Part shown: positions 28,907 through 42,251 of the stretch, in pieces
How the letters are laid out: the number at the start of each line of letters is the position of its first letter
Position numbering within the stretch: the first letter of the stretch is position 1
Assembly: GCA_007695015.1 (NCBI GenBank)
Contig: REEN01000073.1
Coordinates: forward strand, 1-60,851
Direction of reading: 5' to 3'
Source: Marinilabiliales bacterium
Lineage (GTDB): Bacteria; Bacteroidota; Bacteroidia; Bacteroidales; PUMT01
Length of the DNA: 60,851 nt
Notes under the pieces: model-generated
What the model was told of the DNA's origin: nothing
Database searches by the model: none
What the model saw: only the letters and a program-made list of their open reading frames with translations
Translations under genes and position numbers: made by a program

Positions 28907-30373
28907 ATGGAAAAACTATTTAGTAATTCGCTTTTTCGTATTGCCTGGCTTTTGATAGCAGGTATGGTAACTTTCACAGCATGTGAAAAGGATGATGATG
29001 ATGATGACAACGGAATTCCCGCGGAGGATGGTATCTATATAACCGGACCCGCATCAGGCTTTGACGGACTTGTTCTTGAGGGCATGATGGATCCAGGAAG
29101 GGAAGAGGGTGAAGGCTTTGCATCCAATCCCCGCAGTGGAATGTTTGAGAAATTCCTCTACCTGGGAGCAGGAAACTTCTCAATTGTTGAAAAATCCGGA
29201 GCTGATGAGTTTGTCTACGGCTGGAAAGCCGGAACGCAGGATTCTTTTGACAATGAGGGAGAAGGAGATGAAACTGACGGACCGGTCCATTACGGCGAAT
29301 TTGCCGATGAGGGTATGGAGTTCAGTGTGGCAACCGCCGGTTTCTACCATGTTATCCTTGACAAAACCACTGGTATGGCATATTATACCAGGATCAGCCA
29401 TTGGGGTCTTATTGGCGATGCAACCGATCAGGGTTGGGCAGCCGAATACCAGATGACTGAAACAACACTGAGTGCAACTGAGGCTGCATGGGAGCTAACA
29501 GACCTTACCCTGCGTGAAAGGGGCGGTTTCAAGTTCCGCTACAACAGTGGATGGAAGATCACCACCGACGATTTTATAATCTTTGCCAATATTGGTAGCG
29601 GTGATTCGGATGCTGAATTCATAACCGGAGGAGATGTTTTTGGATATCCTGCTGATGGTGAAGGTGAATATACAGTGACCCTTGCGTGGACCATTGAGGA
29701 CGGGTTCAGTTTTTCAACCGAGAGAACAGGTGATGTTGAGCCGCTTCCCGAGTTCCCCGATGCACTCTATATGATCGGCGACGGTGTAGGAGGATGGGAA
29801 TGGGCAGACATTGACCTTCCGATGGTACCGACTGCAGGCAATAAAGATCATCTCTTCTGGAAGATCGTATGGATGGAAGCTGACGGTGGTTTCAAATTCG
29901 CTCCGCAGAGAGAGTGGGCAGGAGACTTCGGCAAGACAGGAGATGCAACCGACGGAGTATATGAAATTGGCGGCGATAACATTCCGGTGCCCGGTGTGGC
30001 AGGATACTACATGGTAGTTGTGAACCTCGAAACCGACCAGATAGCCATTGCTGATCCGCTGGTATACCTCATCGGCGAGACGATAGACAGCTGGGATACA
30101 GCTAACCCTGATGCCCTGTTTACAGTTGATAATGATAATGAGGTTATTACTATTACCAGGGATCTTGCTGCGGCAGACCTTAGGATTTATGCATGGTTTG
30201 ATGCTGTTGAAGGCTGGTTTACCGACTGGTGGCAGCATGAGTTCATCATCCTTGACGGTGAGATTGAATTCCGTGGCAGGGGTGATGACCAGGAGAGGGT
30301 ACAGGTACCTGCAGGAAACAATAAGATCGATCTCAACTTCCGCACAGGCGAAGGAACAATAACCCAGCCCTGA
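28907..30373 (+). CDS. SusE/SusF-like outer-membrane starch-binding lipoprotein
   Basis: Lipoprotein of 488 residues with lipobox TFTAC (Cys25) followed by EKDDDDDDNG, a strong surface-export signal. The body consists of repeated beta-sandwich modules of about 110 residues, each opening with a phrase like YITGP, GLIGDATDQGW, LYMIGDGVGGWEW or VYLIGETIDSW; in SusE and SusF these modules are starch-binding with aromatic platforms (the W residues at each start are visible). The position after susC-susD and before a GH13 amylase fits the role. Which of SusE or SusF it matches cannot be decided. Confidence 0.88.
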   Translation: MEKLFSNSLFRIAWLLIAGMVTFTACEKDDDDDDNGIPAEDGIYITGPASGFDGLVLEGMMDPGREEGEGFASNPRSGMFEKFLYLGAGNFSIVEKSGADEFVYGWKAGTQDSFDNEGEGDETDGPVHYGEFADEGMEFSVATAGFYHVILDKTTGMAYYTRISHWGLIGDATDQGWAAEYQMTETTLSATEAAWELTDLTLRERGGFKFRYNSGWKITTDDFIIFANIGSGDSDAEFITGGDVFGYPADGEGEYTVTLAWTIEDGFSFSTERTGDVEPLPEFPDALYMIGDGVGGWEWADIDLPMVPTAGNKDHLFWKIVWMEADGGFKFAPQREWAGDFGKTGDATDGVYEIGGDNIPVPGVAGYYMVVVNLETDQIAIADPLVYLIGETIDSWDTANPDALFTVDNDNEVITITRDLAAADLRIYAWFDAVEGWFTDWWQHEFIILDGEIEFRGRGDDQERVQVPAGNNKIDLNFRTGEGTITQP

Positions 30374-39341: not shown

Positions 39342-40199
39342 CTATCTGTAGCTAACTTCAGCAACAACCGGCCAGTGATCTGAAATAAAGATCCCGTTTT
39401 CCATCTCCTCGTCGACCCTGTAGGACAATACCCTATAATTGTCGTCAACGAAAATGAAATCAATCACCCTGGGTTCAATATCGGTCCTGAAACCGTTAAA
39501 TGTTGATTGTGCACCTGTGACAGGCTCTTCAGCTATAAGTTCTGCATTGGTGAGCCCGTTTCTTTCGGCAAAGGTATTGACCATGAATTCATAATCTTCG
39601 CTGCTTTTCCTGATATTGAAATCGCCCACCACTATTACCGGGGCATCGCCGGCAATTTCTGTAATACGATCTGCCATGAGTTCTATGCTGTTGAGCCTTG
39701 CCTGCACGCCGCGATGGTCGAAATGTGTATTGAACGCATAGATAATCTCACCGCTCTGCCTGTCTTCCAGCGCAGCCCAGCTTACAATTCTTGTAATTGC
39801 CGCATCCCAGCTTCTGCTTCCCGGAATCTCAGGTGTCTCGCTCAGCCAGAATTGTCCGTGGTCGCGCAGGTTAAACCTCTCCTCCCGGTAGTAGATCGGC
39901 GAATACTCACCCCCGGTTCTGCCGTCATCCCTTCCTGTTCCGACATAAGCATATCCGGGCATTATATCCAGAAAGTCCTCGATCTGGTTGACAAGCACCT
40001 CCTGCATGCCAACGATATCGGGTGCAGCCTCCTTCATATACGATTTAACTATAGGAATACGTGCCTCCCACCGGTTTTCCCCGTCGGCGGGATTATCAAA
40101 CCTCACGTTGAATGTCATTACCGTAAGCTCATGCTCTTTGGGACCGCAGGAAGCAATTACCAGGCACAGAGCGAAAAGTATAACTGCATAAATCTTCAT
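39342..40199 (-). CDS. Endonuclease/exonuclease/phosphatase-fold lipoprotein
   Basis: Metal-dependent phosphoesterase of the DNase I/sphingomyelinase superfamily (285 residues). The lipobox VIASC (Cys18) makes it a lipoprotein, so the substrate is outside the cytoplasm. Catalytic motifs are visible in order: MTFNVRFDNP (Asn metal/phosphate site), GMQEV (Glu metal ligand), FNTHFDHRG, VVGDFNI (Asp/Asn) and SDHWPV (Asp-His). The family includes nucleases, sphingomyelinases and inositol phosphatases, so the substrate is undecided. It stands alone. Confidence 0.9.
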   Translation of the reverse strand: MKIYAVILFALCLVIASCGPKEHELTVMTFNVRFDNPADGENRWEARIPIVKSYMKEAAPDIVGMQEVLVNQIEDFLDIMPGYAYVGTGRDDGRTGGEYSPIYYREERFNLRDHGQFWLSETPEIPGSRSWDAAITRIVSWAALEDRQSGEIIYAFNTHFDHRGVQARLNSIELMADRITEIAGDAPVIVVGDFNIRKSSEDYEFMVNTFAERNGLTNAELIAEEPVTGAQSTFNGFRTDIEPRVIDFIFVDDNYRVLSYRVDEEMENGIFISDHWPVVAEVSYR

Positions 40200-40336: not shown

Positions 40337-40807
40337 TCAGTAGTATTTTCGCTGCACATTGAAGCTGTTTCCCCTGATGATCCAGCAGGGTGCATCACAA
40401 CGTGTACGTATCTTTTCAGTTCGCAGGAAGCCGCCGTCAATTGCAGTAATGATGTTGACACTGTGTCCCCTGTAGTCCGCTGAAACCGTATAATACCTGT
40501 TAACCGGGAGGACTACGCTCCAGCGTTGGGTGGAGACTGTATCGGCTATTATCAGGACCTCCTCTTCAATTCTTCCCTCGTATACCCTTACCACTACATG
40601 CCTGTTCACCTGGTTTATGGTAAGCCTGACGTCTATTTCTGCCGACGAAGGTTCACTGGTGTAGCACTCACTGCAATCCAGTACATGCCACTCTTCCGGA
40701 TTGCAGGATAAGCCCGGCAGTATAAATAATGCAAGATAGATAAGGCGGAAAAAGAATTTTCCTTTTTTACCGGCAGCTTTGTTTTTTGAGAATATATTGT
40801 GTCTCAT
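40337..40807 (-). CDS. Cys-containing lipoprotein of unknown function
   Basis: Not recognised. The 156-residue protein has a positively charged start, a hydrophobic segment (about 18-33) and a lipobox PGLSC (Cys35). The mature part has two cysteine pairs (CSEC near 44-47, and CDAPC near 138-142), which could form disulfides, and otherwise looks like a small beta-sandwich. It is 13 bp downstream of the ankyrin-repeat gene on the same strand, so the two form an operon; a joint function at the envelope is inferred. Confidence 0.7.
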   Translation of the reverse strand: MRHNIFSKNKAAGKKGKFFFRLIYLALFILPGLSCNPEEWHVLDCSECYTSEPSSAEIDVRLTINQVNRHVVVRVYEGRIEEEVLIIADTVSTQRWSVVLPVNRYYTVSADYRGHSVNIITAIDGGFLRTEKIRTRCDAPCWIIRGNSFNVQRKYY

Positions 40808-40820
40808 TACAGATTGTTAT

Positions 40821-42251
40821 TTACCAGTATGTTGTCCTGTATATCAGCGGATCCTTTCTAATCCTGAACCGGATACCTGCTTTGAGGGATAAACGGTGTC
40901 CGTGTTTGTCAATTATGTTCAGGTCAAAATATTCATAACCAACTTTGTAAAACCACCAGCTTCCTTCCTTGTAGTATCCGGCTGAGGGAACTATGTGCCA
41001 GCGGGGTTCCGGGTAGCGGTAAGTGCCCCAGTATTTTCCCTGTGAGTACATAACCCTTATACCCGCGTAGAAACCTTCGGTATTTATGGCATACGGCCGT
41101 AATATACGGATCCTTTTGTGGAGGGACCCATAAAAAAGGTGGCGCTGTTCCCAGAGCTGGTCATACCAGTTATCACTGAATTCTATAAGCACGGCCCTTC
41201 TTACCGGCCTTGTTTTCCAGCCGGCTGAGAGCAGCAGGTCGTATTTGCTGTCTTCCAGTCCGGCCTGTAACCCATGGAAATAATCGCCGGTATTGAACAT
41301 CATTCCGGCCGAAATCTGCATGGTAGCAAAGTCAGGTATTATGTTCCTCCTGATACCCTGCTCTCTCAAAAGCTCAATCAGCTCGGTATTGCCCTGCCAC
41401 CTGGCAAGGTTCATCAGGTTTTCGGTTTCGGTTAATCTGACACCCGGATCGGCGCCCTGATCGATCAATATTTCTGCAAGGTTGGCCTGGTTGTTGGCTA
41501 TTGCAATTGCCAGCGGTGTCATTCCGTCTCTTGTCCGGATATTGACATCTGCATTGTTTTCAAGCAGATAATTAGCCATATCCTCCCGTCCGAGCTGCAC
41601 GGCCATCATAAGCGGGGTAAATCCGAAATCATCCTGACTGTTTACATCGGCTCCATAGTCCAGCAGAAGCCATGCAATATCGGTCTGGGCGTAAATTGCC
41701 GCACCATGAAGCGCTGTTGCCCCTTCAGCATCACGGGTGCCGGGTTCAGCTCCAAACATGAGGAGCAACTCTGTTATATCAAAAAGGTCAAGTGAGGCCG
41801 CGTGCATGAGAGGAGTAACTCCGCCGTTATCCGGCAACCCGGTATCTGCTCCTTGCTGCAGCAGATAAAGTACGATATCGTAGTTGTTATTGATAACCGC
41901 TCCTGCCAGGGCGGTTAAGCCGTTGCGGGGCCTGGCATCCAGGTCGGCACCGCTTTCGGCCAGCAGCGCGGCAACTTCTTTATGTCCCGCGCTCGCTGCG
42001 TACATAAGTGCTGTAACCCCGTCAGCCGTAACCTGGTTTACGTCATACCCCTTTTCAATGAACAACCGCACACTGTCTGCATCACCGCGGTCTGCTGCCA
42101 TAATCAGGAACAATGATGTGTCGTTGTCCTCCTGCAGTAACAGGGTGGCCCCTGTGATCCCGGCCAGATGATTAAAGTCCGCTAAATACGCGGTAGCCGT
42201 AAATACGGTTGCGCATGCAATAATTATAGAAAGCCAGATGATCCTGAACAT
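40821..42251 (-). CDS. Periplasmic ankyrin-repeat protein with C-terminal beta-barrel-like domain
   Basis: A 476-residue exported protein. A hydrophobic segment at about 3-23 acts as signal peptide or anchor. Residues 45-310 hold about eight ankyrin repeats of about 33 residues, with the usual DxxGxTALxxAAxxGxxxxxxxLLxxGAD pattern (for example DGVTALMYAASAGHKEVAALLAE and EGATALHGAA). The last 155 residues (about 320-476) have no ankyrin features; they are rich in Tyr, Trp and Gly with alternating strands and end in an aromatic residue (TTYW), as outer-membrane barrels do. The combination is unusual. It is followed at 13 bp by a Cys-containing lipoprotein gene. Function unknown. Confidence 0.85.
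   Translation of the reverse strand: MFRIIWLSIIIACATVFTATAYLADFNHLAGITGATLLLQEDNDTSLFLIMAADRGDADSVRLFIEKGYDVNQVTADGVTALMYAASAGHKEVAALLAESGADLDARPRNGLTALAGAVINNNYDIVLYLLQQGADTGLPDNGGVTPLMHAASLDLFDITELLLMFGAEPGTRDAEGATALHGAAIYAQTDIAWLLLDYGADVNSQDDFGFTPLMMAVQLGREDMANYLLENNADVNIRTRDGMTPLAIAIANNQANLAEILIDQGADPGVRLTETENLMNLARWQGNTELIELLREQGIRRNIIPDFATMQISAGMMFNTGDYFHGLQAGLEDSKYDLLLSAGWKTRPVRRAVLIEFSDNWYDQLWEQRHLFYGSLHKRIRILRPYAINTEGFYAGIRVMYSQGKYWGTYRYPEPRWHIVPSAGYYKEGSWWFYKVGYEYFDLNIIDKHGHRLSLKAGIRFRIRKDPLIYRTTYW

Follow-up and report, generated by a model that had tools for sequence, protein, structure and literature searches.

Results

Organization of the locus

The window analysed here is the whole of a 60,851 nt stretch of contig REEN01000073.1 from a Marinilabiliales bacterium. 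Two genes lie next to each other on its minus strand. The first (40821..42251, minus strand) is an ORF for a protein of 476 aa, referred to below as the ankyrin-barrel protein, and was characterized with Pfam and an AlphaFold2 model. The second (40337..40807, minus strand) encodes a lipoprotein of 156 aa. An earlier note on this DNA had given both ORFs, and they were found at the coordinates and on the strand that it named. The lipoprotein gene follows the ankyrin-barrel gene after a gap of 13 nt (40808..40820), also as that note had said, and this arrangement on one strand is compatible with an operon. The same-strand gene after the pair (39342-40199) is one that we take to be a lipoprotein gene of the endonuclease/exonuclease/phosphatase type.

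Residues 1-22 of the ankyrin-barrel protein (42186..42251, minus strand) resemble a signal peptide and contain no lipobox Cys. This export signal is a hydrophobic stretch judged by eye, not by a signal-peptide predictor; the AlphaFold2 model placed a helix at residues 2-30. Eight ankyrin repeats follow at residues 45-299 (41355..42119, minus strand). They were detected by Pfam (Ank_2, E 2.7e-79), which places the protein in the ankyrin family (PF12796/PF00023), and the AlphaFold2 model showed eight helix pairs across residues 45-297. The model of the whole protein reached a pLDDT of 87.2 and a pTM of 0.72 with an input alignment that, as for the lipoprotein, had just 17 rows, one for the window and one for each of the 16 named loci. 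The earlier description of an exported protein with about eight repeats thus agrees with the Pfam match, the helix pairs and the signal read by eye. Matches to defence systems and effectors were rejected. PADLOC matches (PDC-M72A, Ankyrin, MzaA) lay on the ankyrin repeats, as did NCBIfam matches (MzaA, Dot/Icm Ank effectors), which were far under the curated cut-offs.

Repeat 4 differs from ordinary ankyrin repeats in its aromatic make-up. An alignment of 53 sequences revealed a conserved aromatic patch with an acidic residue 161 at residues 150-166 (41754..41804, minus strand). Residues 150, 154, 156, 157, 165 and 166, which correspond to ankyrin positions 10, 14, 16, 17, 25 and 26, were aromatic in 68, 72, 47, 64, 58 and 81 % of the sequences, and residue 161 was D or E in 47 of 53. 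The mean entropy at surface positions was 2.65 in repeat 4 and 2.62 in repeat 2. Since repeat 4 is not the lowest, the patch is distinctive by its aromatic content more than by overall conservation. In designed ankyrin proteins, the binding positions that are varied include 14 and 26. Judged from the alignment, the patch would be a natural place for a client to bind.

The C-terminal beta domain

The repeats are followed by a predicted outer-membrane beta-barrel domain at residues 306-463 (40863..41336, minus strand), assigned from the AlphaFold2 model, strand alternation and profile matches of relatives. The C-terminal 170 residues or so were helix-free in the model, and nine beta segments were predicted (308-319, 324-334, 339-347, 352-359, 362-382, 391-407, 417-429, 433-441 and 452-463). 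On this model the nine segments are read as eight barrel strands plus one extra segment, 352-359, in a loop hairpin. An even number of strands would leave both ends, the ankyrins and the conserved tail, in the periplasm.

The most conserved motif of the domain was Y-x-Q-x-W-E-x-R at residues 363-370 (41142..41165, minus strand), with Q365 in 51, W367 in 42, E368 in 52 and R370 in 51 of the 53 aligned sequences. R348 was also present in 51 of 53, so that the charged residues R348, E368 and R370 are nearly invariant. A conserved tail of 13 residues (464-476; 40824..40862, minus strand) ends in Trp. Position 472 was K or R in 42 of 51 sequences, and W476 was found in 36 of the 49 with a letter in that column. 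Hydrophobicity alternated along the strand positions by 2.13 Kyte-Doolittle units, compared with 0.98 +/- 0.25 for shuffled columns (53 sequences), and this value was equalled by 1 of 5,000 column shuffles. As prediction, these results bear out the earlier proposal of a barrel-like C-terminal domain with a terminal Trp. The structure prediction that had been called for gave an amphipathic all-beta domain, which is also compatible with a soluble barrel.

On a rival reading both proteins are periplasmic. Tethered by the lipoprotein alone, they would make up a soluble scaffold, in which the C-terminal part folds as a soluble beta-domain that is lipocalin-like. Alternation and AlphaFold2 strands fit soluble and membrane barrels alike. 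In Pfam searches with E up to 1, neither the barrel domain of the window nor three barrels without ankyrins described below matched an outer-membrane family; the latter matched no Pfam family, and the window's domain had no credible Pfam or NCBIfam family. However, 2 of 29 barrels of relatives matched OMP_b-brl (PF13505; best E 5.9e-4) and one matched the outer-membrane protein family Pom (PF17251) weakly (E 0.051). The charged residues R348, E368, R370, K379 and E440 are conserved, and the hydrophobic faces are rich in aromatic residues; both features occur in small outer-membrane barrels. We regard the soluble arrangement as unlikely. The prediction supports a domain that behaves like a small outer-membrane barrel, and that may be inserted into the membrane. 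No consistent NCBIfam family was found across the 29 barrels, the barrel sequence profile gave 0 matches to solved structures, and the structure search with the full ankyrin-barrel model returned a list filled by ankyrins.

The partner lipoprotein

The lipoprotein contains a lipobox Cys35 (40703..40705, minus strand) followed by N-P-E-E-W. The lipoprotein signal was read by eye rather than by a predictor, and Cys was present in the lipobox column in 45 of 47 aligned lipoproteins. The two close Cys pairs pointed out earlier were confirmed as Cys45-x2-Cys48 (40664..40675, minus strand) and Cys137-x3-Cys141 (40385..40399, minus strand). Cys48, Cys137 and Cys141 were each kept in 47 of 47 aligned lipoproteins, and all four Cys were found in 46 of 47 when the first was allowed at either of two positions. 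The pairs may form disulphides.

The AlphaFold2 model of the lipoprotein, likewise suggested by the earlier note, folded well (pLDDT 81.8, pTM 0.65). It consisted of strands only, save the signal helix and short turns, and supports a predicted beta-sandwich. Structure comparison returned generic Ig/FN3/CnaB-like sandwiches. The best Foldseek match was the copper protein CueP (E 1.0e-3), which aligned over 82 residues at 2.6 A with a VIA-align Z of 8.4. Other beta-sandwiches scored alike (top Z 8.9), indicating a common arrangement only, and CueP was rejected as a relative. The lipoprotein matched no Pfam or NCBIfam family, and its relatives had no family in common.

Surface lipoproteins of Capnocytophaga carry an export signal with acids at +4 and +5 and Lys at +3, according to the parts of PMC5080379 available to us. 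The N-P-E-E-W sequence is like this signal in its acids at +4 and +5 but is without the Lys at +3. Acidic residues at +2 to +7 averaged 1.91 in 11 family lipoproteins; the mean was 1.58 for a background of 12 further putative lipoproteins (p 0.40), which were crudely called and included at least 1 false member. An ORF of 488 aa elsewhere in the window (28907-30373) was also picked up as a lipoprotein. Its mature end would read C-E-K-D-D-D-D-D-D, which resembles acidic surface-export signals of Bacteroidota.

Co-occurrence and gene order

We searched 295 genomes, an even sample of the order, for the lipoprotein with the single window protein and for the barrel domain with a profile. The lipoprotein was found in 81 genomes by this single-sequence query, which could miss divergent genomes with the lipoprotein only. 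The barrel domain was found in 84, a count that includes matches with in-frame stops (G187, G188, G194, G091) and a piece at a contig end (G291) and that refers to the barrel only, with or without ankyrins before it. Both were present in 81 genomes and the lipoprotein alone in 0. One of the 81 (G080) was barrel-positive only through a shorter paralogue, and the joint count is otherwise 80; only 92 bp separate its lipoprotein from a contig end, where a barrel gene may have been cut off. Three genomes had the barrel and no detectable lipoprotein (G051, with the shorter paralogue only, G065 and G187). A lipoprotein profile found nothing in these three, nor in six relatives without either gene (G002, G004, G006, G013, G014, G015).

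Of 120 sampled families, 40 had the lipoprotein, and its presence was mixed in 13 of these; within the mixed families 36 of 38 genomes agreed. When the lipoprotein was shuffled within families, 73.7 +/- 1.6 genomes had both genes, with a maximum of 80 in 10,000 trials compared with the 81 observed. Conservation of the pair, which the earlier note had raised as a question, is thus indicated by the barrel in 81 of 81 lipoprotein genomes and by shuffles that never reach this number. An oddity of a single genome is ruled out by the 81 of 295 genomes. Plasmid cargo was rejected: the lipoprotein, the only query used, had no plasmid match, and the window's own genome contained one match to each protein of the pair. 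One lipoprotein match per genome was also the rule in the 295 genomes.

Searches of 60 relatives with single sequences found the lipoprotein in 23 and the barrel in 22, including a disbelieved fragment with five stops (G049). Two genomes (G039, G050) had the lipoprotein and no barrel in these searches, and the profile found the barrel in both. Single-sequence searches saw the barrel in 38 of 43 lipoprotein loci (L024-L066), and both genes were present at 16 of 16 named loci, each of which belongs to a metagenome-assembled genome.

The pair was adjacent on one strand in 63 of 81 genomes. Among the 18 others, the lipoprotein lay near the upstream contig end in four (G253, G265, G080, G061), and in G249 the two genes shared a contig and were separated by about 2.3 kb. 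In the remaining 13 the barrel gene was on another contig; the lipoprotein had at least 1.9 kb upstream, and the ORFs there were not barrel genes. Both genes were nevertheless retained in these unlinked genomes. In three genomes of genus g45 (G058, G261 and G168; loci L045, L137 and L141) the lipoprotein was parted from the barrel gene and started exactly where a different long ORF ended, one of a shared type of 480-505 aa. The same ORF type beside the lipoprotein makes the relocation look ancestral to the genus.

A larger operon was not supported, as ORF lengths around the pair differed between most named loci (only lengths were compared); L102 and L104-L106 had several flanking ORF lengths in common. 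A relative of the 39342-40199 gene followed the pair on its downstream side in three other members of the window's genus (G003, G009, G012) and was absent from the rest of 160 loci, whose flanks were mostly short.

Gene trees built with FastTree for 47 pairs had 12 of 44 splits in common; 1,000 shuffles of the labels gave 0.19 on average and never more than 3. Mirror-tree partial correlations with the lipoprotein were 0.23 for the barrel and 0.21 for the ankyrins (47 pairs). These values are weak, and the side that meets the lipoprotein is therefore not told apart by them.

Paralogues and occurrence outside the order

Across the phylum, 395 genomes were sampled, some of the order included; the barrel was matched in 5 and the lipoprotein in 4, the window's genome being one in each case. 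After reading the ORFs, we took the barrel matches in G472, G438 and G454 (E 3e-4 to 8e-4) and the lipoprotein matches in G422 and G674 (E 5e-4 and 7e-4) to be spurious. The only convincing match besides the window's genome was G403, which has both barrel and lipoprotein. Its barrel ORF has 193 residues with a signal and no ankyrins. The lipoprotein start overlaps the barrel stop, and the lipoprotein is cut by the contig end.

Barrel paralogues without ankyrins were also found in G170 and G061 (L128 232-1017 and L129 1472-2098), whose genomes have both pair genes too. The L128 paralogue overlaps a long ORF with what we take to be MORN-like repeats. A shorter ankyrin-barrel paralogue of about 385 aa occurred in G051, G187, G084, G080 and G184 (L121 81-1241, L122 1273-2433, L124 951-2105, L125 843-1994 and L126 851-2005). 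It ends in a conserved ADKTL-type tail, and no family lipoprotein lay beside it in the stretches read.

Because the sole convincing genome outside the order has both barrel and lipoprotein and lacks the ankyrins, barrel and lipoprotein look like the core of the system, with the ankyrins as an added periplasmic arm, as far as sequence comparison goes.

Discussion

The pair recurs in uncultured Bacteroidales-type bacteria and looks like an undescribed two-part device of the cell envelope. We think it probable that the two proteins form an outer-membrane barrel-lipoprotein complex that couples a subunit in the outer membrane or at the surface to a periplasmic protein. The larger protein would be exported and its C-terminal domain would sit in the outer membrane as a small barrel of about eight strands, with the eight ankyrin repeats hanging in the periplasm. 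The lipoprotein, a predicted beta-sandwich with probably two disulphides, would be tethered to the same membrane and dock mainly on the barrel side. The ankyrin arm may hold a periplasmic client through the aromatic patch of repeat 4, and the complex could serve as anchor, scaffold or sensor. Export, eight repeats, a barrel-like domain and a conserved pair thus stand from the earlier interpretation; its ankyrin scaffold is recast, since the comparison with G403 puts barrel and lipoprotein at the centre.

It is possible that the ankyrin-barrel protein is instead a dedicated exporter of a surface lipoprotein, similar to Slam. The repeats would capture the lipoprotein, which the barrel, possibly together with BAM, would help to flip across the outer membrane. 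The layout is that of Slam, with N-terminal periplasmic repeats, a C-terminal barrel and a lipoprotein gene that is often adjacent (PMC5449769, in the parts available to us). The occurrence of one lipoprotein match per genome, and of none without a barrel match among the 295 genomes, would suit such a dedicated system, and the flipping route of surface lipoproteins in Bacteroidota is given as unidentified in the sections of PMC12578637 at hand. However, repeats and barrel differ from those of Slam, and three genomes keep the barrel without the lipoprotein. About eight strands are also too few for a translocation pore alone. We do not favour this exporter and consider it quite unlikely. A related view, to which we give about as little credit, is that the ankyrin-barrel protein is dedicated to the assembly or flipping of a single lipoprotein and does the work of Slam in Bacteroidales with unrelated parts. 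In the periplasm the ankyrins would take over the lipoprotein or bind a chaperone, and the small barrel beside BAM would let the lipoprotein reach the surface. If this were true, the protein would count among the non-essential flippases that are still missing and that serve a subset of lipoproteins.

An inhibitor or immunity protein with the lipoprotein as held partner, modelled on the Bdellovibrio ankyrin protein Bd3460, which binds and inhibits the cell's own cell-wall endopeptidases (PMC4686830, as far as its accessible text describes), is very improbable here, as the lipoprotein has no Pfam or NCBIfam family and no plasmid match, its relatives have no family in common, and the PADLOC matches are confined to the ankyrin repeats. 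Neither one match per genome nor wide co-occurrence resembles the turnover of toxin-immunity pairs. A role as an accessory of the T9SS was considered and not adopted. PorV was matched in 283 of 295 genomes (262 over the cut-off) and, being near-universal, hardly discriminates; the lipoprotein was found in none of the 12 genomes of the order without a PorV match.

As a barrel-lipoprotein complex, the pair would be a minimal example, with one barrel, one lipoprotein and one periplasmic binding arm that co-occur almost perfectly in the sampled genomes. The pair also suggests a structural role in the envelope for bacterial ankyrin repeats, which are more familiar from the effectors of intracellular pathogens.

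Comparison with known systems

AnkB and Cj1386 are exported bacterial ankyrin proteins. Together with Bd3460 they use ankyrin repeats as a protein-binding surface in the envelope, as proposed here; to our knowledge, none of the three has a barrel or an obligate lipoprotein. Literature searches that combined ankyrin with outer membrane, barrel, lipoprotein, periplasm or Bacteroidota, with preprints and most subscription papers outside their scope, returned no description of this architecture, in line with the earlier view that the pair had not yet been described. Neither BAM paper (PMC12578637, PMC12611786) uses the word ankyrin in its main text.

The OMP_b-brl family (PF13505) is all-beta and barrel-sized like the predicted domain here; the copy of the domain in the window gave no match to it. 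Slam proteins (DUF560, type 11 secretion) likewise have periplasmic repeats followed by a barrel, with a lipoprotein gene that is often adjacent (PMC5449769, PMC8406197, both in part). Slam combines TPRs with a 14-strand DUF560 barrel, whereas the pair described here has ankyrins and about eight strands. Pfam searches at E up to 1 gave no DUF560 match, either for the protein or for any of the 29 barrels, and ankyrins stand in place of the TPRs; a lipoprotein gene is adjacent in 63 of 81 genomes. The pair is not a member of the Slam family, and the likeness in layout stands.

SusC-SusD is a complex of a barrel and a surface lipoprotein in Bacteroidota. The phylum makes many such complexes, and BamG-BamH is a recent example (PMC12578637, PMC12611786). 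According to the accessible parts of these papers, BamG is homologous to FadL and has 14 strands, a putative operon contains BamG2 and BamH2 (PMC12578637), and conservation of both BamG and BamH extends throughout the phylum (PMC12611786). No FadL/Toluene_X Pfam match was found in the protein of the pair or the 29 barrels at E up to 1, and nine beta segments were predicted compared with 14 strands. Like the complex proposed here, BamG-BamH is an outer-membrane barrel with a lipoprotein, probably from the same phylum. On this partial account BamG-BamH is phylum-wide and 14-stranded, whereas the pair here combines a predicted barrel of about 158 residues with ankyrins and is seen, by its barrel, in one order, where 84 of the 295 sampled genomes have it.
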